A stretch of DNA of 64,000 nucleotides from Verrucomicrobiota bacterium (lineage in GTDB: Bacteria; Verrucomicrobiota; Verrucomicrobiia; Opitutales; Seribacteraceae), in the NCBI GenBank assembly GCA_028343845.1, contig JAOLZO010000006.1:1-64000 (forward strand). The letters run 5' to 3'. Shown piece after piece: positions 12,242-64,000 of the stretch (the stretch's first letter is position 1; the number at the start of each line of letters is the position of its first letter). The position numbers were made by a program, and so were the translations under genes. The notes below the pieces were generated by a model. That model was not told where the DNA came from, did not search any database, and worked only from the letters and a program-made list of their open reading frames with translations.

Positions 12242-12351
12242 TTTTGGGGAAGGTTGATGCCATTATGATTGCATGGCATCTGATAACGCAACCTTTAATG
12301 GGTTGATCGCTCCGAACTTGCCTTGGCCCTGAAACTCTCTAGTTTGTAAGC

Positions 12352-13077
12352 ATGAAATGGGCTTGCTTAACAAGGAATCTGATCAAAGGTCTGTTTGTAG
12401 CCGTTGCCCTGCCTTTTTACCACGGAAACGCTCAAACTCTCATGTCCACGAGGGCGTTTTCACCTGATGCCAATGGATCTTTGGCTTCTGCAAAAATAAT
12501 CCGAGTGGTTCAACCAGGAGTTTTTGACGTTCAGACAACAGATTACGTCGTGAGGATGCGGGCGTGGGGCGTTGGTTTCCCAAAGCGGGATCAACCCGGT
12601 TACGCCGAGGCCCTTTCCTTCACCGAGAACAGACTGGTGCTGACGGCTCCGAACTTTAAGATCAAGAGAGAATTTGACGAGAAGAACCTAAAGGTTGTGG
12701 ACGTAGTGCTCATGGGTGGGAAAATGAACTTTAGTAGGGAGGCGATCGGATTGGGTATTGGTTGGCATTTGGAAAAGGAGACCAACAGGTATGGCCCATT
12801 TGTTCTCGCTCAGTTGAAATCGAAGCGAATGAATGCGGGAGTTTGGGCAAACAATTTCAATTATAACCAGGCGGACCCATTGGCCCGGCCAACCCCTCAG
12901 CTACCTAATGCGTTACGGGATAGAAACACTTTTGTGCCAGGCTTGAGCTATTGGGTCTCGAGCTTGGGCAAAATCCACAGGCCCGGGTGCTCATTTTACG
13001 AACGGGGCAAAGGAGTGCTTACCTCAAAGCCAAGTGGTCGGGATTGCAGGATTTGCGGGGGCAGAAAGCCCAAGTAG
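12352..13077 (+). CDS. Secreted SNase-fold protein, probably catalytically inactive
   Basis: Exported protein of 241 aa. Residues 1-27 form a signal peptide ending near GNAQT. Residues about 45-165 follow the staphylococcal-nuclease fold: VRMRAWGVGFPK aligns with the nuclease strand that normally reads RLLxVDTPE, and GYAEALSFTENRL with its helix. MNAGVWANN matches the usual C-terminal GLW segment. The Asp and Glu of VDTPE are replaced by Gly and Lys, and the expected second Arg is not obvious. The C-terminus (from about 197) has YWVSSLGKIHRPGCSFYE and CRICGG, a His/Cys-rich tail seen after some SNase domains. A structural or binding role seems likelier than catalysis. Confidence 0.8.
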   Translation: MKWACLTRNLIKGLFVAVALPFYHGNAQTLMSTRAFSPDANGSLASAKIIRVVQPGVFDVQTTDYVVRMRAWGVGFPKRDQPGYAEALSFTENRLVLTAPNFKIKREFDEKNLKVVDVVLMGGKMNFSREAIGLGIGWHLEKETNRYGPFVLAQLKSKRMNAGVWANNFNYNQADPLARPTPQLPNALRDRNTFVPGLSYWVSSLGKIHRPGCSFYERGKGVLTSKPSGRDCRICGGRKPK

Positions 13078-13180
13078 TTACCTTATTTGCAAGGCTGGTG
13101 AAGGTTATTCCATTCCGTAATATGTTTCAGGCTCGCTTGGCTCAACTTTTTGCTCTCGTTTTTTGCTATGTTTAAGCGCT

Positions 13181-14392
13181 ATGGATAGAACTACGAACAT
13201 GTACATACCAGCATTAAGTGAGTTTCCTGAATTTTCTCTTGAACGCCTGCTACGCACCTGCTTTGGCCATTCTCCCGAAGAGGAGCTGAAGATTTGCATT
13301 CTCATCGATCTTCCCGACCTTTCCCTGATGGTGGGGCACAAGTTCATGAGCGAGCATGGCTTTGAGGTACAGAAGCGAGCCCATGACGTCTTCCTCAAAT
13401 TATTGAAGGAGGGCGTTTCCGAAAAGTTGGGCTATACTGAAAACGATTTTTTTGCATATCGCGCGACTGGCGGAAGTAATCTCGATCCAGATGACGAGCT
13501 GACTGATTTCGAGGGGAACTCTCTTACTTTTACGCGGGACGTATGCCCAAAATACGATTTGATACTGGCCATTTCTGACTTTTCGCTAACCGCGCCCCTC
13601 ACTGCCATGGCCAAGGAGTACGGTTTTCGTGGCGCAACCCTGCACGGAGTGAATGATATTATTTTGCAATCGGGCCTTTCGGTCGATTACCAAATGGTCA
13701 GCAGGCAAGCCGAACTGTTCCGAAGCGCCTTGGATCATGCCGATGCCTTCGAATTGGATTTCGAGGCGCTTGGAAGGTCTTTTACCCTCCGAATTGAATG
13801 TGAGCGTCAGCAAGCCCAGAAAAGTCACGGCTTATGCCCTCCGGGCATTCCTGACGTTGCGAATTTACCTGCCGGAGAAGTCTATTTCGTGCCCAAAGGC
13901 GCATCCGGCTCTTTCCCCTTCCGGTTTTCCGACGGAACCCTTGCCGAGATGAAGGTTTCGGACGGAGCGATTGTCGAAGCCGTTCTGTTGCATGGGTCCG
14001 AAGATCTTGTTGAGGAGAGGAACCGCTTGTTGACTGGGGATCCGGCGACCGGTATCATTGGGGAACTTGGCTTTGGCACTCAAATCCTGCCTTTTTCAGG
14101 TAAGGATATTCAGGACGAGAAAATCATCGGGACCTGTCACGTTGCCACGGGTCGAAGCGATCATCTCGGCGGGAATCTTACTCCTGATCTTTTCAATTCC
14201 AGGCAAAATGCTTCTCACGATGACATCCTTTACGCACCCCCTAAGACTCCTGAAATCACCGTCAGTCAGGTAAGGATGTTCAAGGACGGGACCGTTTCGC
14301 CAATATTGGAACGTTTTGCACCCACTTCCTACCTGCTGCAAAGGCTAGAAGATGAATATCCTGTGGAGAAATTTACCGGCCAAGTGGTCTAG
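13181..14392 (+). CDS. M29-like metallopeptidase-family protein
   Basis: 403-aa cytosolic protein that resembles the M29 aminopeptidase family in its C-terminal half: Glu in NLPAGEVYFVP near residue 235, Glu in IGELGFGTQ near residue 290, His pairs in GTCHVATGRSDHLGG near residue 320, and His/Asp in ASHDDILY. The N-terminal half is only loosely similar to the M29 gene at 5797 and contains FSLTAPLTAMAKEYGFRG. The two may therefore act on different substrates. ATG 13181 is chosen; TTG 13163 and ATG 13199 are alternatives, none with a good ribosome-binding site. It overlaps the next small ORF by about 40 bp. Confidence 0.8.
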   Translation: MDRTTNMYIPALSEFPEFSLERLLRTCFGHSPEEELKICILIDLPDLSLMVGHKFMSEHGFEVQKRAHDVFLKLLKEGVSEKLGYTENDFFAYRATGGSNLDPDDELTDFEGNSLTFTRDVCPKYDLILAISDFSLTAPLTAMAKEYGFRGATLHGVNDIILQSGLSVDYQMVSRQAELFRSALDHADAFELDFEALGRSFTLRIECERQQAQKSHGLCPPGIPDVANLPAGEVYFVPKGASGSFPFRFSDGTLAEMKVSDGAIVEAVLLHGSEDLVEERNRLLTGDPATGIIGELGFGTQILPFSGKDIQDEKIIGTCHVATGRSDHLGGNLTPDLFNSRQNASHDDILYAPPKTPEITVSQVRMFKDGTVSPILERFAPTSYLLQRLEDEYPVEKFTGQVV

Positions 14393-14809: not shown

Positions 14810-17800
14810 ATGGACATGTCGGAGCATCCAAGCCCTTATGCTCTTCCTCAACTAAGGATGTGTTATCGTCAGCTGATTTTGCTGACCGTATCTTTGTCGA
14901 TGGGTTTCTCGATTGTTGGAAACGCTCAAACTTTTACAGGGCAGACACTTCACTCCTATTCGTTGGAATGGAATGGTTCGGCCTATCAAGTCTCGGGTTA
15001 CCCGGGTCAAAGCTTCCCACCGCTTTCTTTATACGAGAATCATTACTATGTGTTGGAGAACAATTCAACAATCGGAACGCTTCTTTCGGTCGGGGAAAAT
15101 AATCAATCCTCATATGGGAAACCGGATGTTTGGAACAACGGGGCTCATGGCAATGAAGAGTATCTGCTTATTGCGCCAGACGTAAATTCATCGAGGACCC
15201 TCCATTACTTCAACCCCGATCAGAACGGCAGCACCGGACAACTGAACGTTTTGCCTTATGACTCGCATTTGTTGCATCCTGACTTGAGTCTGGATGATTC
15301 CCGGTTCGGGCATGCGGTGCAAATCAATGACTGGAACCAAACCATCGTGGGTGCTCCCGGTCAGGGTACTTTGGACGGAGCGGTTTACCTGTTTAACCGG
15401 GAATCGAATGGAAGTCAGACTCAATTGCAAATGATGATGCCTTCGGTCGTTGACGGGCAGTTTGGGGCTTCGGTCGAGGCAAATGGGGACTTTCTCGGGG
15501 TTGGGGCGCCTGATGAATCCGGGTTTCAGGGCAAGGCATACTTGTACATGAGGGAATCGAATGGCAGTTACGCCCTTTGGGAAACTCATGCTCCTCCATC
15601 GCCTCAAGCTGGCGACAGTTTTGGCTGGGCTATGGCAATGGACACTTCCTCAATGGTGGTTGCCTCCTTGCAACGCCAGAATGGAGGAAGTGGGCAAGTC
15701 AGCCATTATAGCAAAAACCCAGACAATACCTGGTCTTTCGTTTCCTCCTTTTCCTCGGATGACAACCAAAGCGGAGATGAATTTGGCCATGACCTCGATT
15801 TGTCGGGAAATTACCTGATTGTCGGGGCCCCCATGGCAGATGCAGATGGTAATAATTCGGGGAGCGCTTACATCTTCGAACTTAACGGTTCCTCTTGGAG
15901 CCAGGTGTCCAAGCTTCAGCCCACCGGTCTTTCGATTGATGATAAGTTCGGTTATTCCGTAGCTCTGTCTGGTAACTTGGCTTTTGTCGGCGCCGTGAAC
16001 GGAGACTCGAACGTTTCCAATACGGGGTGTGTTTACGTTTTTGAAAAAACGCAGTCCGGTTGGACGGAAATCTCCAAGATCAACCCGCCGAGCCTGACCG
16101 CAGATCAGTTGTTCGCATCGAATCTTGAGGTCAACGATGATTTGCTCATGGTGGGTGCTCCTCAGCAGGGTGAGGATGGCTTTGGTTATATTTATCGTGC
16201 GGATGCCAATGCAAGCTTTTGGACACTCATCTCGGCCCTCGACTGCAAGGCCGCTGCGTCTTCCAGCAAGAATTTAACCTTTCTTGCCCTCAAGGATGGC
16301 ATGGCCGTGATTGGAAGCCCGGGGGACAGTACCCAGCAATCTTTCGGAGGAGGGGTTCTTGTGTTTTACAATGATGCTTGGAACAGCCTTGCCTTGCCTC
16401 AATTACATCCTGTCATAGACGGAAACTCGACCCCCTTGGTTCATTTTACCGAGGTTGAGGTCTCAAACCACTCTTATACCTATGATTTCAACGGTTCTCA
16501 TCCTTTTTCCAATTCACTGACTTGGACAATCGATGATGCAAACTTCAGTTCGGGGCAGTCGTCGCCGACCATCGATTCGACTACCGGGGTCTTTACCTAT
16601 AGACCGGATGCGAATTTTAGCGGTCTCCATAGCTTTACTATCTCTCTTCACGAAGGGAACCTCTCGGATAGCGTTCAGTTTTCGGTTTTTGTCGATGGTA
16701 CTCCTGACAGTCCGGTCTTTTCAAACCCTGGCGAATTCATTTTGCCCAATGCGATGGAGGGAGACGATTACAACCAATCGATTTCCTTGTTTGATGCCGA
16801 TGGTGACGCCCTTAGCCTTACCTTGAGCGGGGGAGCGCCTCCTGCCAACTTCGCCATAGTGGGCACTAACCTTACCTTTGCCCCTCCAATCGGTGCCGCT
16901 GGCGGTTTGCCTTCCCAGGCTTACACTTTCCAATTAACGGTTTCAGATGGCTCGCTTTCCTCTGTCCAAACGTTCCAGCTCACGGTGTTGGCAAGAAACG
17001 AGCCACCGTACATTTGGGTAGATGGCAATTCGTCCGTTACGGATCTTAACGTCACGATTCCCGAGGATAGCAACGCGACAACTTGGTTTTCCGTCCTTCC
17101 CACTCTGGATTACAATGATTCCGACGGTCACACGATTGAACTGAACGCTTCCGTTTCGCCTGCCCATGGCACTTTGACTCTCGATATCAATGCGGTGGGT
17201 AATCAAAGCGTATTGTATTTGCCCGATGCTGACTTCAACGGAACGGACACTTTTACCATCCGCCTGAACGACGTTGTTGGCACGATGAACAAATACGACG
17301 AATTGACTTTTTACGTAACGGTGACTCCGGTCAACGACCCGCCCGTGATTACTTCGGTTCCCCCGAGTCAATTTGCCCCTGAGGGCGTTTTGTTTGCATA
17401 TGAACTAAACGTTTCCGATCCGGATCAAGGTGATTCTTTCACGGTGGTCTATTCGAATTTGCCAACTTGGTTGAGTTTCAACCCCGGAAGCTTGACTGTT
17501 TCGGGTACTCCGAGTTGGCAGGATTATGAGGAGTCCGGTCCTCGCCTGATCTTGATCGAGGTCACTGATCAGGCTGGGGCAAAGGGGAGTCAGGGTTTTC
17601 TTTTGGAAGTCGTTCCTACGAATTATCCTCCTAGTATCGTTCAGGGCTCTTCGATCACGATTCAAGTTAATGAAGATTCGGATTTTACGGATATTTCGGT
17701 TTCCGCAACCGATCAGGATGAAACCGTTGGACAGTTGAGCTGGGTCTTGGGAACTGCTCCTGCTAATGGCACGGCCAACGTATCCGGGAATGGCACCGTT

Positions 17801-20800
17801 CCCAGCGTGTTGCAGTATAAGCCGGATGCCAATTTTACGGGGGCTGATTCCTTCGTTATCAACGTTTTTGACTCGGGGGATCCTAACGCTCAGGATTCGA
17901 TTACCATTCAAGTTGCGGTTTTGCCTCTAGACGATGCCCCCGCCTTCACAAGCGCGACCAAGGGAATTGCCGTGAGAGGGCATCAGTTTGAATACAATGC
18001 GACCGTATTTGATGCGGATGGCCAAGAGTCTCTGGTCATATCGGTTCTGAGCCCATTGCCCGACTGGGTGACTTTTGTGGATGATGGGAACGGAAGCGCC
18101 CGTTTTTACGGGACGCCGAGCGAATATGACGTCGGACAGAACCTCATTGTTCTGGAAGGTAGGGATTCTACCAATTTGTTTGCCCAGCAAACCTTCTTCC
18201 TGAAGGTAATCGGCGAGAATACGAACCCTACGATCACTCAAGGTGATAGCGTTAGCTTTTCCGCGGTGGAGGACACGACTTGGGTCGGGGACGGCTTGCT
18301 TACCGCATCCGATGCAGATGGGCAGGATTTGCAATGGTCTCTTAGCGGTCAACCAAGTCATGGCTCTGTTATTGCAGAAGGGTTGGGCGGAACGATTCAA
18401 CGCTTGGAGTATATCCCGGATGGGAACTATTCAGGACTCGATGCTTTTGTGGTCAGTGTAAGTGACGGGGTCGGTTCGAGCTCGGTGACAGTTACCTTGA
18501 ATGTTCAGAACGTTGATGACGCTCCGGTCTTTTCAGTCTTTCCTTCCAATTCCTCCATTGTGGACGGCAACCTTCTGAGCCTCCCGATCGTAGTTTATGA
18601 TGCGGATGGGTTGGGCGGGGCCACCTTAAGTGAAACGAGTCCGCTGTGGTTGTTGGTCGATTCGTCAAACCTGACTATCACCGGGAGCATCCCTTTTCAG
18701 GGAACTCCTGCCGTAGCCGACGAAGGAAATCATTCCGTCAGCCTTACGGTTACCGATTCCACCGGTTTGTCCGTGAGCGCCAGTTTGATCGTTACCGTCG
18801 AAGTGCACAATTACCCACCAAGCATCAACGCTGCCAGTTTCAGCGTTCAGATGACCGAGGATCTGGGTGGGACTTGGTCTGCACCCTCGCTTTCCGCCAC
18901 CGATTTGGAAACCAATGCCAGCCTGATGACATGGGGTATTGCCCAAGCTCCAGGCAGGGGTACGGCCGCTTTCGTTACGGCCAATGATCCGTCAAGCCTT
19001 ACCTATTTGCCTGATGGCAACTTTTCGGGAATGGATTCTTTCGTAATCTCGGTTACGGATGGTGGCGGAATACACTCTTCTGCTCCCAAAACCGCCACTG
19101 CAATCGTATCGGTGGAGGTGCTGCCCGTTAACGATGCGCCGGTCTTCACTTCCATACCCGCCACTGACTTGAATGACGGAACGTATTCTTGGAATGACGA
19201 ATCCGAATACGTCTACAAGGTCATATCCTACGATTCTGACTGGGACTGGCAAACACTCGAATTGAACGTCACCTCCGTTTTGCCAAATTGGCTGACCTTC
19301 GTTTCCGAGGGCAATGGAACGGGTACGCTCCGGGGGACCGGAGCGGTCAAGGACAAGGGGACTTATCAAATTCAATTTACGGCTACCGACTCATATGGAA
19401 CGACTGCGGAGCAGAACTTTTCACTTGTTTTGCGCATCGACAATTATCCACCCGTTTTCAAAAGTTCTTCTACAGGCAGTGAGATTACCGAACTAATCGT
19501 CTATTTGGATGAGGATTCAAAAGCTGGCGATGCCAGGGGCTGGCTTACCCCCGTGGATTACTTCGGGGAAGATCCTGATCCGCAACTCCAGAACCCGCTG
19601 AGGGATTTGAAATGGACATTAGGCTCTTCTCCCTTGAGCTTGGCTCAGGTTGAGGTCAATGGAACCGGGCTGCGCCCTCAGGGCTTCAGCTATGAGATTG
19701 CAAAGGATTTCTCTGGGAACGATCTGTTTCACCTCAAGGCATTCGATGGTCACAGGAGTGCTCTGTTGCCTGTCAGGATAGTAGTCCGCCCGGTTCCGGA
19801 CTCCCCGGTTTTCACTAAAGTTCCTCAACCCATCATCTATGGTAAGGTCGGAGCTCTGTTGCAAATTCCGTTGGAGACATCAGATCCTGACGGGGATAGC
19901 CGTAAGATCGAGGTGGTCGGATTGCCTCAAGGTGATGAGGGATTCTGGTTTGGCATTACCGATCTCAACGAGACCAGGGGGTCGGCCATTTTACAAGGCG
20001 TTCCCCCGAATGGCTTGCAAGGAAAGAGGTACCCGATTGCCTTGATTGCGACTGATTCTACAGGAAGATACGCTACTGCAAGCGCCTTGCTTATCATAGA
20101 TGGAGCGAATAGAACCCCCATCATTCAGGGGGGGGAGACCGTGCAGTTTGCTTTTGACGGATCCGGAAACGTCAAGGGCGTGGACTTGGCTTCCATAGTA
20201 GCGACCGATTTCGACGGCGATTCGTTACTATGGTCATTATCTCCCTTGTCCGAGCACAAGTATGGCGTGCCCAAGGTGAGCGGGGTAGGGGCTAGACCAA
20301 CCACGCTCACTTATCTTTCCTATGGTTCGAATACGGCAGATTCTTTCGTTATAAGGGTGTCGGACGGTTTGAGCTTCGATGAACTCAAGATTGTACCCCT
20401 AATCGTATCTTCGCACGAATCCATACAGGTGGATATGACCGAAGGTAACGTAATGGCATATGCCGGGGTCGAATACTCATCCTACTTCTCTCTCTCTCCA
20501 CTAAGCGACAGTACGATTATCGACGCCTCTCTTGATATCGCTCCTTCCTGGCTAAAGGTCAGCAAGGTTTCCCGTGATCTATTTCGATTGCACGGGATGG
20601 TGCCCAAGAGTACCCAAGGCAACTTTGACGTTCGTATCGTTTTCAGCGAGGGAGGGGTAGGCAAGGCGACGAAGAGCGTGACTCTGTCCGTTTCAAGCCT
20701 TTCATCGCCCACGGTTGCCCTTAAGGGAGAACGGTTTCTCAGGTTGAAAAAGGGGGCGTCTTTCGTTGATCCAGGCTATACGGCGACTGGGGCGGGAGGG

Positions 20801-23800
20801 CAGGATTTGTCCAGTTCGGTTATCACCCAAGGTCTGGTTGACCCGAATGCCCTCGGTCTTTTCGAACTCGTTTACAACGTTACCGACCCCATCGGTGGGG
20901 GAGGGGTTTCCGTAAAGAGGTTTGTCCAAGTAGTCGAGGGCAATGCCTCGGTGGTGGTCAAGACCCTTCACCCATTGACTCCGGGAGAAGCGCTTGGCGT
21001 ACTTCCCTCATCGGAGAATACCTTGATTTGGGGGAAAGGAAAAAATGGAACTCAAATCTCCGGCCCTACCAACTCGGTCTCTTTCGTTTCCAGCATTAAC
21101 GAAATGGGCCATTCCATTCGGGCCGAGTTTTTCGAATCCCTTTCCGGTCAGGACGTATCGATTGATGATTGCATTACGACTGCAGATGGAAATTTCCTTC
21201 TGGTTGGCAGATACAAGGGGAATTTGTTGTTTCGCGAATATCAGTTTCTGGCCAAAGGCGAACAAAATCTCTTCATCGTCAAGCTTGATCCGGATTTTAA
21301 TCTGCTTTGGTCCAAGACCCTCTACGGTACAAGTGAAATCGGTTCCCTCAGACTTAGTCAGCTCAAGGACGGATCCCTTCTTTTGGGGGGAGGCTTTGCG
21401 GGGTCACTTACTACGGAGATAGGAACCTACGTTTCAGTCGCCAAAAAAGACCTTTTTCTCTCTCGACTCGATCAGGGTACGGGGGGTTTTATATGGATGA
21501 AGAGGTTTGGGGGGGCCGGTGATGATTCCGTAACGGCGTTGGAAGCCAAGGACGATCTGATTTATCTTGCAGGTAACGTTATCAAAACTGGGTTCGAGCA
21601 GTATTCCTTTCTGTTCGAAATGGATGGAGATGGTTCGATTCAAAGCTCCCTCGCCTTAAAGGGGCTCTTTCAAAATAACGTCAAGGACTTGGCTGTGGGC
21701 GGTGAGAAAATCTATCTTTTGGGGAGTTTCGCGAGCCAACTGAAATTATCGAACGAAAGCCTGACTTCGATGAATAACTCATCCTTTGTTCTCGCTCTCA
21801 AGAAAGGTTTGACGGAGGATTGGGCCGTTGCTTTTTCGGATCAAAGCGAGCCGGTTGGAATAGAGACGGATGCTTTCGGTTACCCTGTTATCCTTAATCG
21901 TTTTTCCGGGAGTTTTGCGATGGATGAAGCCTCGCTCAATCTTTCGTCTCAAGGTTCTGGAGACTTGGTCGTTACGAAACTTGGCAAGGACGGAGGAGAC
22001 CTCGTTTGGCATAAGCAAGTGGGCGGGGCGGGAGATGAAAACTCAACTGCTTTCAAAACCGATCGACATGGACGAATCTTCACCCTCATAAGCACGGATC
22101 AAACATTCCTTCTTGATGGGCTGAGTACAAATGGAGCCAACCTTCTCCTTGCCACCATCGAGTCGAGGGACAAGCCGTCTTTCCCGAACCCTCTTTCGTT
22201 GAGTCTGAGCAAAGGGAACGGTTTCCATACCGAGATCAATGCAACGATTCCAAACGGATTTGCCAGTATGGAGTTGTTGAATGCCCCTTCCTGGGTCTTT
22301 TTGAAAGACGATGGCAATGGTACCGGTTTGATTGGGGGAGTCGTTTCTACGGATGCAAATGAATCATCTGAGTTTAAGGTCAGGGTCATTGATCCGGATG
22401 GAGCCTATGCGGACTTGAACGTTAGCTGTTCGATTTCCGATCTGAATCAATCGGAAGCTCGTACCGATCAATTTCCAAGTTTTTCGTCGTCTCTTGATTT
22501 GGGTGCGAACGTCATCGTTTCCGAGGTATTCCCCTCAAGCGGAATGAAATACGTGATATCTGGAAAATTTAAGGGTTCCCTCCAAGTGGGCAGTTTGAAG
22601 GCAGAGGCGAATTCAGGCTACGACGGATTTGCCATGCAGGTTAATTCGACTGGTACCGCCGAGTCGCTTCTTCACATGGTATCGGATGGTGATTTGGACT
22701 TGGCTGGCACGGTGACGGATGAGGATGGAAATATCCATCTGATCGGTTCTTTTTCAGGAAAGCTTTCAGTCGGCTTTTTGGATATAGTTAGCTCAGGGGG
22801 GCGGGATCTTTTCATCCTAAGCTGGAGCAAGGACGGGGATTTGCTTAATCTGCAAGGAATCGGTGGAGCAGGGAACGAGATTGCAACTTCCGCAACCTGT
22901 TCGGGCCAATCCCTCATCTTGGGAGGATATTTTAACGATTCATTCGATTACGGAACTTCCCAACAGGCTTCGGGCGGAGGATCCGACGGTTTTATCATGT
23001 CGATCTCAGTCTTCAGTTTCTCCCAAGTCAATTGGTTCATGCCCTTGGTTTCTACATCAGATGCGTTCGTTCGCGATGTGGACGTCGGTTCGGACGGTTC
23101 GGTCTTTTTTGTCGGTAGTTTTGCCGGAAACGCTTCTCTCGGAGGTATCCAAGTGGTTTCCCAAGGCTTGTCCGATGGAATTGTCGGTAAGTTGGCTAGC
23201 GATGGCCAAGTCAATTACCTCAAGTCGGGCGGGGGGAAGGGAAAGGACGAAGTTGGTTTCGTAACGGCAGCTTCCGGGTCCAATCTGATTGTCGGAGGAA
23301 CCTTTGCGGAAAAACTCGAGTGGGACAGTCAACGTGTGACTACTAAGGGAGGCAAAGATACCTTCCTCGCTACTTTTTCCGCATCGGGCAATTGTCTTTC
23401 TCTGGTTCATTTAGGAGGTAATGGGAGCGAGGATATAAAGGATCTCATGGGCACCGGTAACAACATCGTGGTTTTAGGGACTTTCAATGGAACCGTTCAA
23501 GTAGGAACGAATACCTTTGATTCAAAGGGTGAAGTAGATTCCTACCTCGCTTTTTATGATCCGAGTCTGAAGACTTGTCATCAATCAGTCCATTTCGGGG
23601 GAACGAGGAATGACTTGCTGAATGCCGCCTCCAGCGCAGTCGAAGGACACTTTGTTTTGGCTGGTCTTTCGGATCGGAGACTTGGGCAGAATCTGGAATC
23701 AAGCCTTGTGGATCCCAGTGCGAGTTCAGCGTCTTTCCTTTCTTTTTATGGACCGGTCGACTTTTCTCCAAGAGTGTGGCCAGCTCCGCCTCCTTCGGTT

Positions 23801-24667
23801 GGAGAATCCTCGTTCTTCGAATACCGTTTTAATTCAGGTCCTTGGCCCAGTGGGGCAAGCTTGGCCTTTTCGGTCCAGAGCCTTCCGTCTTGGGCAAACG
23901 CGAGCCTTGACCAAGACGGGTCTGGAGTGATCTGGGGCATGGCGCCTGCCTCATCAGCGGGGCATCAAAATGCCTTTTCCGTAGATTGCTTGATCAAGTC
24001 CGAGCGCTATGGTGAAAAAAGTATTTCATTCACCACCTCGATCGTCCCGAATGCGGAGATTTTCAAACTGGTTTCTGATTCTACAAGCGATTCGGTTACG
24101 CAATTCCAGAAATATTCGTTTATCGTGAACGTTTTGGGGGATAACCCGGGAGACGTTCTTGTTTTTCCGGAAACCTTGCCTTCATGGATGACGGGAACAC
24201 GACTGGATGATACCAGGTTTCTTCTTGAGGGAACCCCCGTGAGCGGTAATTCCGGGACGAGTCCGGTCAAGTTGCGAGCGAGCAATGCGAGCTATGAAGA
24301 AAGTTTTGAAGTAGACGTAAAAGTCCAGTCCACGCTCCAAAACTCTTCGGTCGGAACCGAGTATGGCAATTGGAAGGAAAGCTGGTTCGGACTCTCGATC
24401 TCTTTTGACAATTCATGGTCCTATCACAGTGCTCTGGGATGGATCTACGTAGAATCGAGCAAGGAGGGCGACGCCATTTGGTTCTGGAATGAAAAGTGGG
24501 GATGGTTATGGACCGATCAAGGTCATTGGGACTCCTCAAAAGGGGAGGGCTTTCTCTATTCCTACCAGACTGGGAACTGGCTTTATTTCAAAAAAGGAAT
24601 TGGAGGTGGGGCTAACCTCGTATTTCTTTATGAAACCAGCAAATGGGACTATTACGAAAGTCAGTGA
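14810..24667 (+). CDS. Giant exported protein: FG-GAP propeller, cadherin/Ig-like repeats, Trp-rich C-terminus
   Basis: 3285-aa predicted surface or secreted protein. Residues 16-40 are a signal peptide ending near GNAQT, and AGGA precedes ATG 14810. Residues about 160-520 hold seven repeats with the (D)xFG...VGAP pattern (a seven-bladed FG-GAP propeller). Residues about 540-1880 hold tandem cadherin-like repeats marked by PDANFSG-type motifs, alternating with Ig-like repeats of the LPxWL...GTP kind. Residues about 1968-2045 look like a bacterial Ig/DUF5011 domain (FVDPGYTATG). Two runs of GGAGDDxV-type repeats (about 2110-2490 and 2560-2980) look like further propellers. The last 105 residues are Trp/Tyr-rich and could be an anchoring module. 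An adhesive role is likely, but nothing shows a ligand. Confidence 0.9.
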   Translation: MDMSEHPSPYALPQLRMCYRQLILLTVSLSMGFSIVGNAQTFTGQTLHSYSLEWNGSAYQVSGYPGQSFPPLSLYENHYYVLENNSTIGTLLSVGENNQSSYGKPDVWNNGAHGNEEYLLIAPDVNSSRTLHYFNPDQNGSTGQLNVLPYDSHLLHPDLSLDDSRFGHAVQINDWNQTIVGAPGQGTLDGAVYLFNRESNGSQTQLQMMMPSVVDGQFGASVEANGDFLGVGAPDESGFQGKAYLYMRESNGSYALWETHAPPSPQAGDSFGWAMAMDTSSMVVASLQRQNGGSGQVSHYSKNPDNTWSFVSSFSSDDNQSGDEFGHDLDLSGNYLIVGAPMADADGNNSGSAYIFELNGSSWSQVSKLQPTGLSIDDKFGYSVALSGNLAFVGAVNGDSNVSNTGCVYVFEKTQSGWTEISKINPPSLTADQLFASNLEVNDDLLMVGAPQQGEDGFGYIYRADANASFWTLISALDCKAAASSSKNLTFLALKDGMAVIGSPGDSTQQSFGGGVLVFYNDAWNSLALPQLHPVIDGNSTPLVHFTEVEVSNHSYTYDFNGSHPFSNSLTWTIDDANFSSGQSSPTIDSTTGVFTYRPDANFSGLHSFTISLHEGNLSDSVQFSVFVDGTPDSPVFSNPGEFILPNAMEGDDYNQSISLFDADGDALSLTLSGGAPPANFAIVGTNLTFAPPIGAAGGLPSQAYTFQLTVSDGSLSSVQTFQLTVLARNEPPYIWVDGNSSVTDLNVTIPEDSNATTWFSVLPTLDYNDSDGHTIELNASVSPAHGTLTLDINAVGNQSVLYLPDADFNGTDTFTIRLNDVVGTMNKYDELTFYVTVTPVNDPPVITSVPPSQFAPEGVLFAYELNVSDPDQGDSFTVVYSNLPTWLSFNPGSLTVSGTPSWQDYEESGPRLILIEVTDQAGAKGSQGFLLEVVPTNYPPSIVQGSSITIQVNEDSDFTDISVSATDQDETVGQLSWVLGTAPANGTANVSGNGTVPSVLQYKPDANFTGADSFVINVFDSGDPNAQDSITIQVAVLPLDDAPAFTSATKGIAVRGHQFEYNATVFDADGQESLVISVLSPLPDWVTFVDDGNGSARFYGTPSEYDVGQNLIVLEGRDSTNLFAQQTFFLKVIGENTNPTITQGDSVSFSAVEDTTWVGDGLLTASDADGQDLQWSLSGQPSHGSVIAEGLGGTIQRLEYIPDGNYSGLDAFVVSVSDGVGSSSVTVTLNVQNVDDAPVFSVFPSNSSIVDGNLLSLPIVVYDADGLGGATLSETSPLWLLVDSSNLTITGSIPFQGTPAVADEGNHSVSLTVTDSTGLSVSASLIVTVEVHNYPPSINAASFSVQMTEDLGGTWSAPSLSATDLETNASLMTWGIAQAPGRGTAAFVTANDPSSLTYLPDGNFSGMDSFVISVTDGGGIHSSAPKTATAIVSVEVLPVNDAPVFTSIPATDLNDGTYSWNDESEYVYKVISYDSDWDWQTLELNVTSVLPNWLTFVSEGNGTGTLRGTGAVKDKGTYQIQFTATDSYGTTAEQNFSLVLRIDNYPPVFKSSSTGSEITELIVYLDEDSKAGDARGWLTPVDYFGEDPDPQLQNPLRDLKWTLGSSPLSLAQVEVNGTGLRPQGFSYEIAKDFSGNDLFHLKAFDGHRSALLPVRIVVRPVPDSPVFTKVPQPIIYGKVGALLQIPLETSDPDGDSRKIEVVGLPQGDEGFWFGITDLNETRGSAILQGVPPNGLQGKRYPIALIATDSTGRYATASALLIIDGANRTPIIQGGETVQFAFDGSGNVKGVDLASIVATDFDGDSLLWSLSPLSEHKYGVPKVSGVGARPTTLTYLSYGSNTADSFVIRVSDGLSFDELKIVPLIVSSHESIQVDMTEGNVMAYAGVEYSSYFSLSPLSDSTIIDASLDIAPSWLKVSKVSRDLFRLHGMVPKSTQGNFDVRIVFSEGGVGKATKSVTLSVSSLSSPTVALKGERFLRLKKGASFVDPGYTATGAGGQDLSSSVITQGLVDPNALGLFELVYNVTDPIGGGGVSVKRFVQVVEGNASVVVKTLHPLTPGEALGVLPSSENTLIWGKGKNGTQISGPTNSVSFVSSINEMGHSIRAEFFESLSGQDVSIDDCITTADGNFLLVGRYKGNLLFREYQFLAKGEQNLFIVKLDPDFNLLWSKTLYGTSEIGSLRLSQLKDGSLLLGGGFAGSLTTEIGTYVSVAKKDLFLSRLDQGTGGFIWMKRFGGAGDDSVTALEAKDDLIYLAGNVIKTGFEQYSFLFEMDGDGSIQSSLALKGLFQNNVKDLAVGGEKIYLLGSFASQLKLSNESLTSMNNSSFVLALKKGLTEDWAVAFSDQSEPVGIETDAFGYPVILNRFSGSFAMDEASLNLSSQGSGDLVVTKLGKDGGDLVWHKQVGGAGDENSTAFKTDRHGRIFTLISTDQTFLLDGLSTNGANLLLATIESRDKPSFPNPLSLSLSKGNGFHTEINATIPNGFASMELLNAPSWVFLKDDGNGTGLIGGVVSTDANESSEFKVRVIDPDGAYADLNVSCSISDLNQSEARTDQFPSFSSSLDLGANVIVSEVFPSSGMKYVISGKFKGSLQVGSLKAEANSGYDGFAMQVNSTGTAESLLHMVSDGDLDLAGTVTDEDGNIHLIGSFSGKLSVGFLDIVSSGGRDLFILSWSKDGDLLNLQGIGGAGNEIATSATCSGQSLILGGYFNDSFDYGTSQQASGGGSDGFIMSISVFSFSQVNWFMPLVSTSDAFVRDVDVGSDGSVFFVGSFAGNASLGGIQVVSQGLSDGIVGKLASDGQVNYLKSGGGKGKDEVGFVTAASGSNLIVGGTFAEKLEWDSQRVTTKGGKDTFLATFSASGNCLSLVHLGGNGSEDIKDLMGTGNNIVVLGTFNGTVQVGTNTFDSKGEVDSYLAFYDPSLKTCHQSVHFGGTRNDLLNAASSAVEGHFVLAGLSDRRLGQNLESSLVDPSASSASFLSFYGPVDFSPRVWPAPPPSVGESSFFEYRFNSGPWPSGASLAFSVQSLPSWANASLDQDGSGVIWGMAPASSAGHQNAFSVDCLIKSERYGEKSISFTTSIVPNAEIFKLVSDSTSDSVTQFQKYSFIVNVLGDNPGDVLVFPETLPSWMTGTRLDDTRFLLEGTPVSGNSGTSPVKLRASNASYEESFEVDVKVQSTLQNSSVGTEYGNWKESWFGLSISFDNSWSYHSALGWIYVESSKEGDAIWFWNEKWGWLWTDQGHWDSSKGEGFLYSYQTGNWLYFKKGIGGGANLVFLYETSKWDYYESQ
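15290..16370 (+). repeat. Seven FG-GAP propeller repeats in the giant protein
   Basis: Seven protein-level repeats of about 50-55 residues begin near residues 163, 215, 268, 322, 377, 430 and 484. Their markers include SRFGHAV, GQFGASV, DSFGWAM, DEFGHDL, DKFGYSV and, for blade six, DQLFASN. Each is followed by a VGAP-like strand; blade seven keeps only VIGSPGD. Seven copies fit one closed integrin-alpha-like propeller. Confidence 0.75.
16440..20450 (+). repeat. Tandem cadherin/Ig-like repeats in the giant protein
   Basis: At least five clear repeat ends share Y-x-PD-(A/G)-(N/D)-(F/Y): YRPDANFSG, YLPDADFNG, YKPDANFTG, YIPDGNYSG and YLPDGNFSG. Two weaker ones follow (YEIAKDFSG and the TYLSYGSN region). 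Between them lie Ig-like units with NYPP or NxPP joints and LPTWL/LPDWV/LPNWL...GTP motifs. The spacing is about 100 residues per unit. Confidence 0.75.
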
Positions 24668-58033: not shown

Positions 58034-61000
58034 GTGTCACTACTAGGGGAAATTTCCAAGAACAGCGAAGCGCTTCGATACCATGCGAAGACAGCTGAGG
58101 TTGCTGGACAGAATCTTGCCCATGTGAATGACGAAAAGTATGCCCGCCAACGCGTGCTTGCGCGTGAGGGGGTCATGCACAAGGCTTTCGGCGGATTGCT
58201 TACTTCGGGGTTGGAGGCAGCGGGTGTTGAGCATGCCAGAAGCGAGATTCTTGACAGGAGGGTTATCAATGAGGTCGGTCAAGGCAAGTCCCTTGCCGCC
58301 CAAAAGGAAATTTTGGAACTGCTTCAAGTTGCTCTTGGAGAGGAAATCACCAGGCAGGGCGTCAACGTAGGGTTGGACGATTTGCATGAAAGCGATCTCG
58401 CTCCCGGTAGCTTGACGCGGGCTCTCAATGATTTTTTCAATACTTTCGAGGAATTGTCTGCTTCCCCCTATGAGCCTGCGATCAAACAGGAACTTTTTCA
58501 CAAGATTCAAACCCTGACCAAGCGCTTTAACGAGGCTGGCCAGAGCCTTGAGCAAATCGAATCCGAACTGACCGGCACGATAGAAAGGTCAGTAGAGGAA
58601 ATAAACAGGATTCTCGATCAGATCCACGAAACTAACCTTCAAGTCCGCAGGTTCGAGTTGTTGGACCAAGGCAAGGCTGTTTCCTACCGGGATGAGCGAC
58701 AGGCCTTGATGGAGCGTCTTGCCGGTTACGTCAACTTTACGACCAAGGAGGAAGTGAACGAGCAAAACAAGCCGACGGGCTTTTTGAACCTCTACATGGC
58801 CGGGCAACATGGGACTCCTCCCTCTACCCACGCGATCCTTGATAATAATGGCGTTGTCGGATTGACAAATAACTGGGGACAGGAGGTTGCTTTGGCAGCT
58901 CCCGTGGACACCATGGGCTCAACCGCGAGAGTTCGTGCCAAGATCGGCTCGGATGGAAAACTCGGCCGATTTGAGGTCTTGGACGGCGGATCCAGGTACA
59001 ATGACTCGGATGGACCGTTTCTCTTCACTTTACTCCCCCCGAAATCTCAGGATTCGACGGGCGATCAAGCCACTGCCGACCAACAGGCTGCGCAGCAGGA
59101 GGCCGGGGCAGCCGGGTTGCAAGCCGACCCGACCTTGCAGGCCGGGCAGGGCGTTGACACGCAAATTACCAATGACACCGCGGACACCTTTCCTGCCGAT
59201 GGACAAGCCACCGCCGCGACCGATCCCCTTAAGTCTGCGGAGGCGAGAAAAGTTGGAGAAGTTTTCTATCAAGGAGGAAAATATTACCAAGCCCTTACCA
59301 GTACGATTAAGGACGATCTCCTTTCCGACGAAGGGAAATTCATGGTGGTCACCGAGCCTTTGCCAAATGGTGTGTTTACCGAGACCAAGAGAAGCTTCTC
59401 CGATCTCGAGTACATTACCAAGGGCTCTCAGGTCTATTACGAAGGAAAGCTTTATCAAGCCACCGCCGACATCGGACCCACAAATGTCGAGGTAGGTGTC
59501 ACTAATGCCGAAACCAACACGGTTTCCACTTCCCGCGGTTATGCCTATGGGGAGGTTTTCAAGTACGACAACAATTTCTATCAAGCGACCAAAGCAGTCC
59601 CCAAGGGCACTGATCTTAGTAGTGCCCAGACTCCAATCGACTTCACTCGTGGATTTGTTCAGATCGGAGCTGAACTTCCGAAGAAGTCGGAAGCGGCTTC
59701 CTTGATTTGGCCCAATGGCAATGCCTTGACTGCGGGGGAAGTTTTCTACTTTGTTGGGGCCGGCTCTACCAGCAATGTGGACGGAGCGTTCTTTATGGCT
59801 ACCACTACGGTGGCGTCCGGTTCCTCCGATCCGAGTAATTCGAACAGTAATTTTGTACGTGTGGGCGCTTATGTCGACGATACCGTGCAAACAGTGGAAT
59901 CCCTGCCTCAGGAAAAGACGGTCACTTCCATTGATCCGCAAAATGGACAAGTTCTTACCGCGACCCAAATGGAAATGTCCCTTGAGGATGGGAAGGTATA
60001 TTATCATCAAGGTTCGGGCACCCATTTTATGGTCAAGGCTCAACCCGAGACAATAGCCGGAAGCCAGGAGTTCATCACCGCTTTCAATCCGACTGATGCG
60101 CAATGGAAGAACAATTTCCATATTTTTACACCGGATCCCAACACGGGTCTTGCTCAACCCGCTATTCAAAGACGGTCTGCTCCGACCGGTTGGAACGTTT
60201 CGGGTGGCGCTCTTGTGGAAGTCAACGTAGGTGTAGCCGAAGCCGTCGTTCATGATGGAGAAATCCAAAGCCTAAATATTGTTAATCAAGGTTCGGGTTT
60301 TCCATCAACTGACGCCCTTTTTGTTAGAAGCAAGAATGCGGATGGTACCTTCGCGACCGATCCTGGCTCGGAAGTCAAGCTTGAGTCCGGTTCCGTTCAC
60401 GGCTATCAGCAATCACGACTTGTCGATATCGAGAAATTTCGAACTTCCCTGAATGGTTTCGTTTCTACTTTCGTCGAGCAGGTCAACGAGATTTACAACC
60501 CGTTGGATGCACCGAGTGAATACTTGTTTGGGTTCAAGGCGAACCTCACCAGACCTTCGTTGCAGAGCAATAGCTATATGGAGGAGTTGGGGCTCTATGG
60601 AGCGGAAGGCAATGGCGAGCTGAGGCTCTTCAGGGACGAGTCCAATATGATTCTTCCGTTCGGGGAGTCCGATACCTTTACCTTGAGTAGCATTTCTCCA
60701 GTGGTGCCTGATGATTTGCCTATTACTCATCCCGATCCCACTAAGCTCGGCTTGGCGGATTTCAAGCTCCAAAATTACTACATAAGGGGAAATGACGGAT
60801 TCGGGGATGATTCCGGAGATCCTTATGACGATGATTTGGAAATCGCTCAAAACAGGGACAAGATCTTTCAGTTCTATGCGGCTGCCCGCAGGATGAAGAA
60901 CGTTACCACTGAACTCGATTCCAGCTATCCCGGCGATGACGGAATACCAGGCTCAGGCGATAATGAAGGCCGTGCCATGTTGTTGGGATACGACTCGGTT

Positions 61001-61453
61001 CCTTTCAGGATAAACGAAGGATCCAAGGCATTCATATTTGGTGATAGCTTTTCCTTTGACGCCGTTTTGGAAAATAGTTGGAATTTGGCTAGTTCCCTTG
61101 TCGTTCACGACGACCTTACTGCTGAAACAATCAAGGCAAGCAACGACTTTGACGAAGCCTCGAATGAGATAGCCTTGAAGGTCGCGGAACTGGGTAATGG
61201 CAATTTTACCGACATGATATCGAATATGAATGCCGATCTCGGCAACACCTTGTCGGACGTGAATGACAACGTCAGTCATCAAAATACGATCGAAACCTTG
61301 CTGCTTGATCAGAGACGTGCGGTCAGTTCGGTTTCGATTGACGAGGAGGTGGCTGATCTCATGCAGTTTCAAAGGTCTTTTCAGGCCTCTTCGCGTGTAC
61401 TTAATACCCTCGACAAGATGCTCGAGTTGGTTGTAATGGGACTCATAAAATAA
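58034..61453 (+). CDS. flgK: Hook-associated protein 1 FlgK with large repeat-bearing insert
   Basis: 1139-aa junction protein, about twice the usual 450-650. The N-terminal D0/D1 region (residues 1-300; AGQNLAHVNDEKYARQRV, SLTRALNDFFNTFEELS, LTGTIERSVEEINRILDQIHETN) and C-terminal end (VSSVSIDEEVADLMQFQRSFQASSRVLNTLDKMLELV) are canonical. Residues about 325-755 are an insert: a Gln/Ala-rich linker, then five G-x-V-x-Y-x-G-x-x-(Y/F)-x-A repeats near 405, 460, 502, 564 and 650. Two DGGSRYND/NQGSGFPS-type segments flank it. The GTG start at 58034 gives the standard N-terminus. Confidence 0.93.
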   Translation: MSLLGEISKNSEALRYHAKTAEVAGQNLAHVNDEKYARQRVLAREGVMHKAFGGLLTSGLEAAGVEHARSEILDRRVINEVGQGKSLAAQKEILELLQVALGEEITRQGVNVGLDDLHESDLAPGSLTRALNDFFNTFEELSASPYEPAIKQELFHKIQTLTKRFNEAGQSLEQIESELTGTIERSVEEINRILDQIHETNLQVRRFELLDQGKAVSYRDERQALMERLAGYVNFTTKEEVNEQNKPTGFLNLYMAGQHGTPPSTHAILDNNGVVGLTNNWGQEVALAAPVDTMGSTARVRAKIGSDGKLGRFEVLDGGSRYNDSDGPFLFTLLPPKSQDSTGDQATADQQAAQQEAGAAGLQADPTLQAGQGVDTQITNDTADTFPADGQATAATDPLKSAEARKVGEVFYQGGKYYQALTSTIKDDLLSDEGKFMVVTEPLPNGVFTETKRSFSDLEYITKGSQVYYEGKLYQATADIGPTNVEVGVTNAETNTVSTSRGYAYGEVFKYDNNFYQATKAVPKGTDLSSAQTPIDFTRGFVQIGAELPKKSEAASLIWPNGNALTAGEVFYFVGAGSTSNVDGAFFMATTTVASGSSDPSNSNSNFVRVGAYVDDTVQTVESLPQEKTVTSIDPQNGQVLTATQMEMSLEDGKVYYHQGSGTHFMVKAQPETIAGSQEFITAFNPTDAQWKNNFHIFTPDPNTGLAQPAIQRRSAPTGWNVSGGALVEVNVGVAEAVVHDGEIQSLNIVNQGSGFPSTDALFVRSKNADGTFATDPGSEVKLESGSVHGYQQSRLVDIEKFRTSLNGFVSTFVEQVNEIYNPLDAPSEYLFGFKANLTRPSLQSNSYMEELGLYGAEGNGELRLFRDESNMILPFGESDTFTLSSISPVVPDDLPITHPDPTKLGLADFKLQNYYIRGNDGFGDDSGDPYDDDLEIAQNRDKIFQFYAAARRMKNVTTELDSSYPGDDGIPGSGDNEGRAMLLGYDSVPFRINEGSKAFIFGDSFSFDAVLENSWNLASSLVVHDDLTAETIKASNDFDEASNEIALKVAELGNGNFTDMISNMNADLGNTLSDVNDNVSHQNTIETLLLDQRRAVSSVSIDEEVADLMQFQRSFQASSRVLNTLDKMLELVVMGLIK
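59240..60060 (+). repeat. Carbohydrate-binding-like repeats within FlgK
   Basis: Five protein-level repeats of about 45-85 residues: GEVFYQGGKYYQA, SQVYYEGKLYQAT, GEVFKYDNNFYQA, GEVFYFVG...AFFMAT and GKVYYHQGSGTHFMV. Each has an aromatic-rich strand and a following A/T-rich strand, the pattern of chitin/cellulose-binding modules of CBM families 5 and 12. The arrangement is tandem. Binding is inferred only. Confidence 0.65.
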
Positions 61454-61460
61454 CCTATTG

Positions 61461-64000
61461 ATGCGCCTACCCAACTTAAGCTCCAGTAACGCGATTACTT
61501 CAAAGATTCGCGACTTGGATCAACAACGATTCAAGATGGATCGTCAGATTACGTCCGGACAAAAGCTTCGGCTTCCCGAGGACGACGGGATGCGTTTGGG
61601 GCGTGTTATCAGATTGGAAACGCAAAAGGGTCAGCTTACCCAGTACCAAAGGAATGCCTCCTATGCCGAAGAGTTCCTGAATGCAGGGCAGTTAAACCTC
61701 GACAAGCTCACGGAGTTGAATCAACGGGCTCAGGAGATTGCCCGCTCGGCTGGTTCCAGCTTGAATGGTCCGGCGATGGAGACCTATGGTCATGAGATTA
61801 GTCAGTTGATCGAGGAGGCCTTGAACAGAATCAATGCGACTCACCGCAAGCAAGCTCTGTTCGGCGGGACGGAGCTCAAACCCAAGTTCGCAAGCTCGGA
61901 CGTATTGCTTGGCAAAAGGCAGACAAAGACTTTTGCCTTCAACGAAGTCGGGCAGCCTGGAGCCGATGGCAAGAGAAGGATTGGCTTTGGTGACGAGATG
62001 GTCTTTGCCCTCAACGGTCGGGAATATGTTTTTCAGTCCAAAGCCGAAGGAGTTGATACGGACGAGGTAGCTGGGAAAATCAAGGATTTGATCAACAGCG
62101 AGTCTGAAATTCTAGGTGATTCCCTTTCCTACGAGACCACCGAATACAGGGCTTTTGTTCGCGGGGGGGCTACTTCCGCTCATTCCTATGACTCACGGAT
62201 TAAGCCAAAGGCTTCGCTTTCCTCTCTCGGGGAGTTGGTCGTGACTGGGGCTGTCGGTCGGACATTCGAAGCTAAGTCAACCTTGCTTACCCATTGGGAT
62301 CCGAACTTTTACCTGCCTGAGCAATTCGATCAAAAACTCAAACAGGAAACCGCTTTCAGGTATCCCGGCGTTGCGTACGAAGATTTGAGCCAAACTGAGA
62401 AGGATCTTGTTCAGGAAGCGGTCAAGGGAGTTCCTTCTAATTTGCAGAAGGCCCTTGATGACGAGACTGCCAAGCAGTTTCCTAATGCCACATTCCCTGG
62501 GATTTCCTCTTATTCGGACTTGACCAACACGCAAAAGCTGAGCGTCTACAAGTTGGTTGTTAAGAACAATTGGTCAAGAGGCCTTACCGTAAATTCCAAA
62601 CTCGGGGACGGGGCTTCCACCATAAAGGCGGAGCACTCCGAAGGATGGAAGAGGTTGACCATATACAATCAAGGGGACGTCGTTCGTTTTGGAGACAAAA
62701 TGTACGAGTCCACTGGTTCGCATAATGTTAACCACAATCCTGAGAAATCAGGAACCGATTATTGGAGAGAGATCAATTCCGGATATAAAACGGAAAGGGA
62801 AGATTGGAACCTTGAGGTTTCGGGCACCGAGAACCGCTACTATTGGATTGCCCCGGACGGAAAGCTTTTTGCTGATCAAAGCGCTGCCGTGAGCCACGCT
62901 CAAAACCTTTTGTGGTCGGCCAAGAAAACCGAATATACCCTCATGAACGATCCCAGTACCACTGCGGACGAGGGCGTCATTCAACTCAATAAGGACGTGG
63001 CCAACAACGTTCGGCAGGTAGCTATTCCCGTAAACGAGTTTTCCGTAACCGGTTCTGAAAATAAAGGCACCGTATTTTTCGATGAAGAAAGCTTTGATTA
63101 TCGTTTGGTTGCAGCCTCGGAGGGAGGCTCGATCGTATCCGGTCCTTACGTTAAGGGGAATTTACAACTCTTTAAGCCCGATGATCCCTTTGTTCAGGCC
63201 AAGGACGTAGTTCTTCACGAGGGCCGCTATTTCCTTGTGAACGACCCAACCGGAATCGACAAAGACAACTTGTCCAAAATCGTTGAACGTTTTCCTCCCC
63301 CCGGAGTGGTGGTGAGCTACAGTGGTCAAGTGCAGAAGGTTGCAACAGGTCAAGGTGCTCAGCTCTCCGCCGGTCAATATATTCTCGACCCGGTAAACGG
63401 GCAGTACTACGTAGCGAACCAAAAGGTCAATTACACTGCTCTGGATTTACAGGCGGCAATCACCAATGCGAACTCAGTTGCGACGGCATTGGGAAATCAA
63501 TCTCAATCGATTGCCATGCCTGTCGAACCAAGTGCATTCAGTGCCTATTCGTCGGATCCTTATTCGGCTGGAGAAATTATATCTCCCGACGGACTCGTGA
63601 CCAAAGTCGCGACCAACCAGATGCGCGGTACTTTTGACCCGAAAAAGCGTTATAATTCTCAAAACAACGCCTCGGGTACGGATCCTCAAACCGGTATGAC
63701 TCCTTTGCTCCCTCATGTCGTTCATGGAGGAGTAAGCAATGGCAAAGGTACCTATTTTACCTTTAATCGGGATCACCTCGGGGAGTGGGAGGCAGGTAGC
63801 TCGGTAACTCAGTTTCAATCGGTCTACAAGGATGGTCAGTTGTGGCAAGCCAATGCCAGTTTGACTTCCGCGCAGAATACGGATGCGAGTTTCAACTCCA
63901 ATTGGACATCCATAGGCCCAGCTTCCGGTGGCGTGCAGATACTTGCGAACGCAGCGACCTCAAATGCGACCGACGTTTCGGCAGCCGTCGAAGCGGAAGC
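61461..64000 (+). CDS. flgL: Hook-associated protein 3 FlgL, 3' end beyond window, with large repeat insert
   Basis: Open to the window end for 846 codons, already about twice a normal FlgL (300-450). It begins ATG 61461, 7 bp after flgK. The N-terminal D0/D1 helix region (NLSSSNAITSKIRDLDQQRFKMDRQITSGQKL...NASYAEEFLNAGQLNLDKLTELNQRAQEIARS) and HRKQALFGGTE are FlgL/flagellin-like. From about residue 393, repeats like those of FlgK appear: IYNQGDVVRFGDKMYEST, AKDVVLHEGRYFLVN, LSAGQYILDPVNGQYYVA and QSVYKDGQLWQAN. The C-terminal D0 helix lies outside the window. Confidence 0.92.
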   Translation, partial: MRLPNLSSSNAITSKIRDLDQQRFKMDRQITSGQKLRLPEDDGMRLGRVIRLETQKGQLTQYQRNASYAEEFLNAGQLNLDKLTELNQRAQEIARSAGSSLNGPAMETYGHEISQLIEEALNRINATHRKQALFGGTELKPKFASSDVLLGKRQTKTFAFNEVGQPGADGKRRIGFGDEMVFALNGREYVFQSKAEGVDTDEVAGKIKDLINSESEILGDSLSYETTEYRAFVRGGATSAHSYDSRIKPKASLSSLGELVVTGAVGRTFEAKSTLLTHWDPNFYLPEQFDQKLKQETAFRYPGVAYEDLSQTEKDLVQEAVKGVPSNLQKALDDETAKQFPNATFPGISSYSDLTNTQKLSVYKLVVKNNWSRGLTVNSKLGDGASTIKAEHSEGWKRLTIYNQGDVVRFGDKMYESTGSHNVNHNPEKSGTDYWREINSGYKTEREDWNLEVSGTENRYYWIAPDGKLFADQSAAVSHAQNLLWSAKKTEYTLMNDPSTTADEGVIQLNKDVANNVRQVAIPVNEFSVTGSENKGTVFFDEESFDYRLVAASEGGSIVSGPYVKGNLQLFKPDDPFVQAKDVVLHEGRYFLVNDPTGIDKDNLSKIVERFPPPGVVVSYSGQVQKVATGQGAQLSAGQYILDPVNGQYYVANQKVNYTALDLQAAITNANSVATALGNQSQSIAMPVEPSAFSAYSSDPYSAGEIISPDGLVTKVATNQMRGTFDPKKRYNSQNNASGTDPQTGMTPLLPHVVHGGVSNGKGTYFTFNRDHLGEWEAGSSVTQFQSVYKDGQLWQANASLTSAQNTDASFNSNWTSIGPASGGVQILANAATSNATDVSAAVEAE
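62640..63930 (+). repeat. Carbohydrate-binding-like repeats within FlgL
   Basis: At least four units of the Y/V-x-x-G-x-x-Y/F-x-A kind lie near residues 398, 580, 634 and 783. The last is followed by FNSNWTSIGPA, a typical end of CBM5/12-like modules (x-W-x-x-I/L-G). Units are less regular than in FlgK. Confidence 0.55.

Follow-up and report, generated by a model that had tools for sequence, protein, structure and literature searches.

CBM5/12-superfamily modules on flagellar junction, cap and filament proteins in one family of Verrucomicrobiota, and their possible role in holding glycan surfaces

Introduction

The transition of aquatic bacteria from swimming to attachment on polysaccharide particles is not fully understood, and adhesion through flagella is usually thought to be incidental. 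The window considered here, i.e. the whole stretch of 64,000 nucleotides that was analysed, comes from an uncultured member of the Verrucomicrobiota (genome G000, 64% complete) and carries flagellar genes from about 32 to 64 kb, among them a flgK with flgL directly 3' of it. A first-pass annotation described in this FlgK an insert of five repeats of CBM5/12 type and suggested that they form a sugar-binding or surface-sensing collar. The locus raises the question of what the insert is built from, where else such modules occur and what they may do on a flagellum.

Results

An ordinary FlgK scaffold around a long insert

The flgK gene is one open reading frame, and both its length and its intact D0/D1 ends are as first annotated: FlgK_D1 (1.4e-28) and Flg_bbr_C (3e-9) match at the ends, while the full-length model TIGR02492 aligns with residues 12-244 and again near 1030-1132 (whole-protein E 1.3e-46; the score of 159.8 bits is slightly below the cut-off of 170.75). 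Model positions 220 and 326, which are ~105 residues apart in TIGR02492, lie ~785 residues apart in the window protein. FlgK was matched in 37 of the 57 genomes of the genome search. There is no cysteine in FlgK and one in FlgL, a near-absence that fits export as an unfolded chain. The flgK features, all on the forward strand, are as follows.

58034..61453, +, flgK, hook-filament junction protein 1; one ORF, 1139 aa, GTG start; FlgK_D1, Flg_bbr_C, TIGR02492
58034..58765, +, N-terminal D0/D1 part, residues 1-244; TIGR02492 positions 8-220
58901..59047, +, second-type beta repeat, residues 290-338 (AxVRAKI..GxLGRFEVLDGGSRY); hhalign 95.5% to FlgL 1205-1262
59045..59233, +, Ala/Gln-rich linker, residues 338-400; by composition
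59234..59356, +, CBM5/12-like module 1, residues ~401-441; family HMM 3.8e-7; hhalign
59396..59503, +, CBM5/12-like module 2, residues 455-490; family HMM 1.8e-7; hhalign 95% to FlgL modules
59525..59608, +, CBM5/12-like module 3, residues 498-525; family HMM 1.9e-7; hhalign 89-96% to FlgL modules
59699..59869, +, claimed repeat 4, residues ~556-612; doubtful; hhalign 0.8-16%
59951..60169, +, claimed repeat 5, residues 640-712; hhalign about 1%; separate conserved element FNPxDxxWxxNF (alignment)
60209..60358, +, second-type beta repeat, residues 726-775 (AEAVV..GEIxxxNIxNxGxGFP); hhalign 88.4% to FlgL 1205-1262
61121..61450, +, C-terminal D1/D0 part, residues 1030-1139; TIGR02492 positions 326-433; Flg_bbr_C

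The Gln/Ala linker noted earlier is present, with 14 Ala and 11 Gln in its 63 residues; it is only 13-33% identical outside the closest relatives, with a similar length in most. It is followed by three copies of the repeat motif, GEVFYQGGKYYQA (at residue 408), GSQVYYEGKLYQA (464) and GEVFKYDNNFYQA (506). On average, a shuffled protein contains the motif, which was fitted to these repeats, 0.0003 times, and three copies were not reached in any of 20,000 shuffles. Module 1 aligns with the FlgL modules at 52-79% probability (hhalign) and with FlgK module 2 at 93%; module 2 is also the FlgK match in a six-frame scan of the genome with PF02839 (13.7 bits, E 0.2). Of the five repeats first claimed, these three are retained, their probabilities spanning 52-96%, while the fourth is doubtful and the fifth unsupported as CBM5/12 modules (0.8-16% for the pair); a module resembling repeat 4 gives weak matches in some relatives (E 0.04-0.9). 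Two copies of a second type of beta repeat bracket the CBM region, and a single copy is found in FlgL (residues 1205-1262); this type recalls the repeats of phage tail fibres. There is no tryptophan in residues 401-525, and modules 1-3 lack the conserved first and last Trp of CBM5/12; the tryptophans of the insert are at 281, 559, 691 and 720.

Elsewhere in the window, a 3285-aa frame (14810-24667) may carry a signal peptide; its long repeats have an FG-GAP- and cadherin-like appearance, and it is perhaps a large surface protein.

Clearer modules in FlgL, FliD and the flagellins

The neighbouring FlgL carries clearer CBM5/12 modules than FlgK, and these bear tryptophan. The window ends within flgL, and the complete frame (1482 aa) is at L044:1462-5907.

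61461..63998, +, flgL, hook-filament junction protein 3; residues 1-846 of 1482, runs past the window; TIGR02550, Flagellin_N
62634..62780, +, CBM5/12 module A of FlgL, residues 392-440, Trp-bearing; PF02839 19.5 bits, E 0.003 (own genome); AF2 model and Foldseek
63786..63887, +, CBM5/12-like module of FlgL, residues 776-809; family HMM 6.7e-6

In the six-frame PF02839 scan of the window's own genome, FlgL takes ranks 1 and 2 and FlgK rank 3. The own-genome FlgL scores 17.8-23.6 bits, under the cut-off of 26.2, whereas Pfam CBM_5_12 is matched by 15 of 16 FlgL orthologues (best 1.1e-11), some of which exceed the gathering cut-off. The Trp pairs of module A and of module B, the latter at residues 1114-1192, are invariant in all 16 orthologues (W396, W435, W1120, W1187), and the motif N-x-N-[HR]-x-P is likewise invariant in FlgL across genera, as are core residues of the modules. 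The AlphaFold model of module A has a mean pLDDT of 73 (core about 85), and its 50 best PDB matches by Foldseek consist solely of chitin-binding domains of chitinases or deacetylases, a CBM5 cellulose-binding domain, and phage tail and injection-system proteins. The very small size of the domain keeps the E-values of these matches modest (0.2-2.4), and it is the agreement among them that constitutes the evidence. A further PF02839 match in this genome, in a 2031-aa frame (G000:C86, E 0.78), was taken as chance.

The module extends to other axial proteins. FliD, which was not found in the window's own 64% complete genome, matches CBM_5_12 above the Pfam cut-off in relatives (4.3e-11 and 1.6e-6); flagellins of ~1000 aa in relatives match below it (8.5e-5, 3.2e-4), and a 567-aa flagellin from another family of the same order matches above it (8.5e-12). 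In the window's own genome, a separate flagellin (L116:4337-5674; G000:C53, about 12336-13673) carries between normal flagellin ends a C-type lectin domain (PF00059, Lectin_C; 29.5 bits against a Pfam cut-off of 22.6) whose EPN and WND calcium-sugar motifs are intact and whose PDB matches include DC-SIGN. Congeneric flagellins with such a domain occur in genomes G008, G009 and G012, and probably in G004, G013 and G014. The flagellin sets of some relatives are unusually large, with 23-33 Flagellin_N matches per genome in G004, G008 and G007.

One carrier lies outside the flagellum. In several congeners the cytochrome c oxidase subunit IV is fused to a C-terminal CBM5/12 module (L104:1150-1839, also L105 and L111; COX4_pro 4.9e-7, CBM_5_12 2e-8); in this lineage the module is thus also put to use where glycan binding is unlikely.

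The FlgK modules by family profile

Searches of the single window FlgK against Pfam (up to E=1), NCBIfam and the PDB (phmmer) gave no CBM match, and the assignment is accordingly based on profiles of the family. An HMM seeded from two FlgL modules only retrieves the FlgK modules in orthologues (1.7e-4 to 0.003) as well as FliD and the long flagellins, with shuffled and reversed decoys all at E >=1. An HMM iterated from relatives gives 1.8e-7 to 3.8e-7 for modules 1-3 of the window protein, and profile-profile comparison links the same three to the FlgL modules at 52-96% probability. Among orthologues of FlgK, 3 of 18 match Pfam CBM_5_12 (best 3.2e-7); the window FlgK does not reach the PF02839 gathering cut-off (13.7 against 26.2 bits), and in its genome every flagellar CBM module is individually below the Pfam cut-off.

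Against the PDB, a profile pooled from 26 FlgK and FlgL modules matches a phage tail fibre (2.8e-7), chitin deacetylase DA1 (1.1e-6), an Anabaena contractile-injection baseplate (3.9e-6) and the ChiA1 chitin-binding domain (1.5e-4), while a profile of FlgK modules only has six matches at E <= 10, all of them CBM5/12 chains or phage-tail relatives at sub-threshold values (0.06-1.2). Phage tail and baseplate proteins are also among the best viral matches. The AlphaFold model of the FlgK insert is of low confidence (mean pLDDT 43.8); its first 21 PDB fold matches are CBM5/12 chains or phage tail proteins, and the model was judged too poor for the arrangement of the modules to be read from it. Alignment of the modules to the binding loops of chitinase type was not achieved.

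By profile homology, then, FlgK modules 1-3 probably belong to the CBM5/12 (chitin-binding ChiA1-type) superfamily, to which they are linked through the FlgL modules. The first-pass claim of a CBM5/12-type signature is supported at the level of the family, less so for the individual protein, which stays below the Pfam cut-off and has modules without Trp. Weak Pfam matches of window proteins to Phage_holin_7_1, DUF1664, Tmp39 and Filament were below cut-off and scattered, and were rejected.

One family of long FlgKs

Within one GTDB family FlgK measures about 1020-1725 aa, whereas open frames elsewhere in the class are about 470-650 aa (65 FlgKs above cut-off, from 286 genomes drawn from the class) and those in other families of the same order 465-506 aa. 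In the rest of the class sample no recognisable FlgL carried module A; its six weak matches there, in other genomes, lie in frames of 153-236, 851 and ~3900 aa, lengths that do not suggest FlgL. Since long FlgK is confined to the family and FlgL module A was unseen elsewhere in the sample, we tie the trait to a single GTDB family; a related flagellin occurs in one further family of the order. The presence of the modules, their homology and their restriction to this lineage are what these results show.

The N-terminal part of FlgK is 55-92% identical within the family. Outside the closest relatives the insert has 26-50% identity against 54-79% for the ends, a faster divergence that is as expected for a surface domain. 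From this divergence and from known flagellar structures (PMC12221982, PMC5691160), we infer that the FlgK insert faces outward.

Genome G008 holds two very different FlgKs (C142, 1096 aa; C268, 1729 aa), and G035:C14 (1712 aa) is similar in length to the longer; this longer type has another large insert, and in G008 it may belong to a second flagellar system or reflect a mixed bin.

Discussion

What the modules may do

We propose that this lineage has rebuilt the outward-facing parts of its extracellular flagellar proteins from small beta modules of the CBM5/12 superfamily, which lie between ordinary D0/D1 ends. The modules would sit in rings at the hook-filament junction, on FlgK and FlgL; at the cap, on FliD; and along the filament, on at least one long flagellin. 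A separate flagellin contributes the C-type lectin domain. The Trp-bearing modules of FlgL and FliD, together with the lectin flagellin, may bind glycans weakly but many times over, such that a cell meeting polysaccharide particles, mucilage or algal walls would be held by its flagellum. The Trp-less modules and Ala/Gln linker of FlgK would mainly extend the outer layer, and these degenerate modules are probably spacers. This division of labour, in which rebuilt outer domains hold glycan surfaces through the Trp-bearing modules and the lectin flagellin, is the reading we favour, by a little more than an even chance. The stronger version, in which junction, filament and cap together make a lectin flagellum, a multivalent glycan-binding organelle of CBM5/12 modules and a C-type lectin flagellin that serves the whole lineage for attachment to polysaccharides besides motility, is a tentative one that we put somewhat short of even. 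Adhesion through the flagellum, as judged from the sequences, stands at about even odds, because the invariant Trp pairs, N-x-N-[HR]-x-P and the lectin flagellin speak for it, and the Trp-less FlgK and the oxidase fusion against. The sugar-binding collar first suggested for FlgK is less well supported: FlgK itself has modules without Trp that fail the Pfam cut-off, while the adhesive idea draws its backing from FlgL, FliD, the flagellins and the lectin flagellin. None of the observations points to sensing.

The serious rival to adhesion is a purely structural role, in which the CBM5/12 modules, as small and stable bricks of beta structure, reinforce the outer layer of junction, filament and cap by thickening or locking it through protein-protein contacts, sugar binding having been lost. 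The loss of Trp from the FlgK modules fits such a role, as do the module on cytochrome c oxidase subunit IV in relatives, the homologues that are components of phage tail fibres and of injection-system baseplate and cap complexes, and the sharing of one module type by all four axial proteins, as expected if neighbours pack. It is harder to reconcile with the Trp pairs retained without exception in FlgL, and the intact EPN/WND of the flagellin lectin domain is hard to explain without sugar binding; moreover, every flagellum needs stability, yet for the most part only one family has the modules. We regard the structural role as a real possibility, though the less probable one.

The divergence of the insert relative to the FlgK ends (26-50% against 54-79%), the wide variation of insert lengths (FlgK of 1022-1725 aa) and the up to 33 Flagellin_N matches in relatives could also suggest a fast-changing decoy against phages and grazers, in which the type of module is incidental. 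Pure evasion would not, however, require the invariant module core and the N-x-N-[HR]-x-P of FlgL across genera, and we consider this improbable. That the repeats are a chance match of a short motif in a usual FlgK outer domain is more improbable still: the window FlgK alone has no Pfam CBM match up to E=1 and FlgK outer domains do vary between species (PMC5691160), but profile, fold and lineage evidence oppose such ordinary D2/D3 domains, FlgK is twice the class length, and for FlgL and FliD they are already refuted.

The junction, cap and filament proteins share a type of module familiar chiefly from chitin-active enzymes, and another flagellin bears a lectin domain, so that the role becomes addressable domain by domain. 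Such a flagellum would also be a clear example of domains changing in concert in four proteins that have to assemble with one another. If its role is structural, CBM5/12 folds would have been reused as flagellar building bricks, as apparently in phage tails.

Comparison with known systems

Neither the module family nor the presence of inserts in flagellar proteins is new. In the open-access papers searched, we found no hook-associated protein or flagellin described with a CBM, a chitin-binding or a lectin domain, nor a flagellum in which junction, cap and filament proteins bear CBM5/12 modules alongside a lectin flagellin. With the CBM5/12 domains of PF02839 (the ChiA1 domain 1ED7, chitin deacetylase DA1, chitinase C), the FlgL modules share the core W..Y..G..V...G..Y.A, the final W and the predicted fold; those proteins are enzymes, whereas here the modules sit on flagellar axial proteins and those of FlgK lack the Trps. 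The closest PDB profile matches are CBM5/12-like modules that occur on phage tail fibres and in contractile injection systems (9RKV, 8FQC, 7B5H), and these likewise belong to an extracellular tubular machine, although the machines are viral or injection tubes rather than a flagellum and do not share the D0/D1 scaffold. FlgK of Campylobacter, Burkholderia and Salmonella (PMC5691160) has, as here, D0/D1 ends and beta outer domains, but there the outer domains form beta barrels or take other folds, CBM modules are not described in them, and FlgL has no partner modules. Giant flagellins (PMC6248924) and flagellinolysin (PMC7643111) resemble the present case in that their hypervariable region contains inserts that are long or have a function; they are, however, flagellins with DE repeats or a protease, whereas in this lineage the junction and cap proteins share a CBM-type module.
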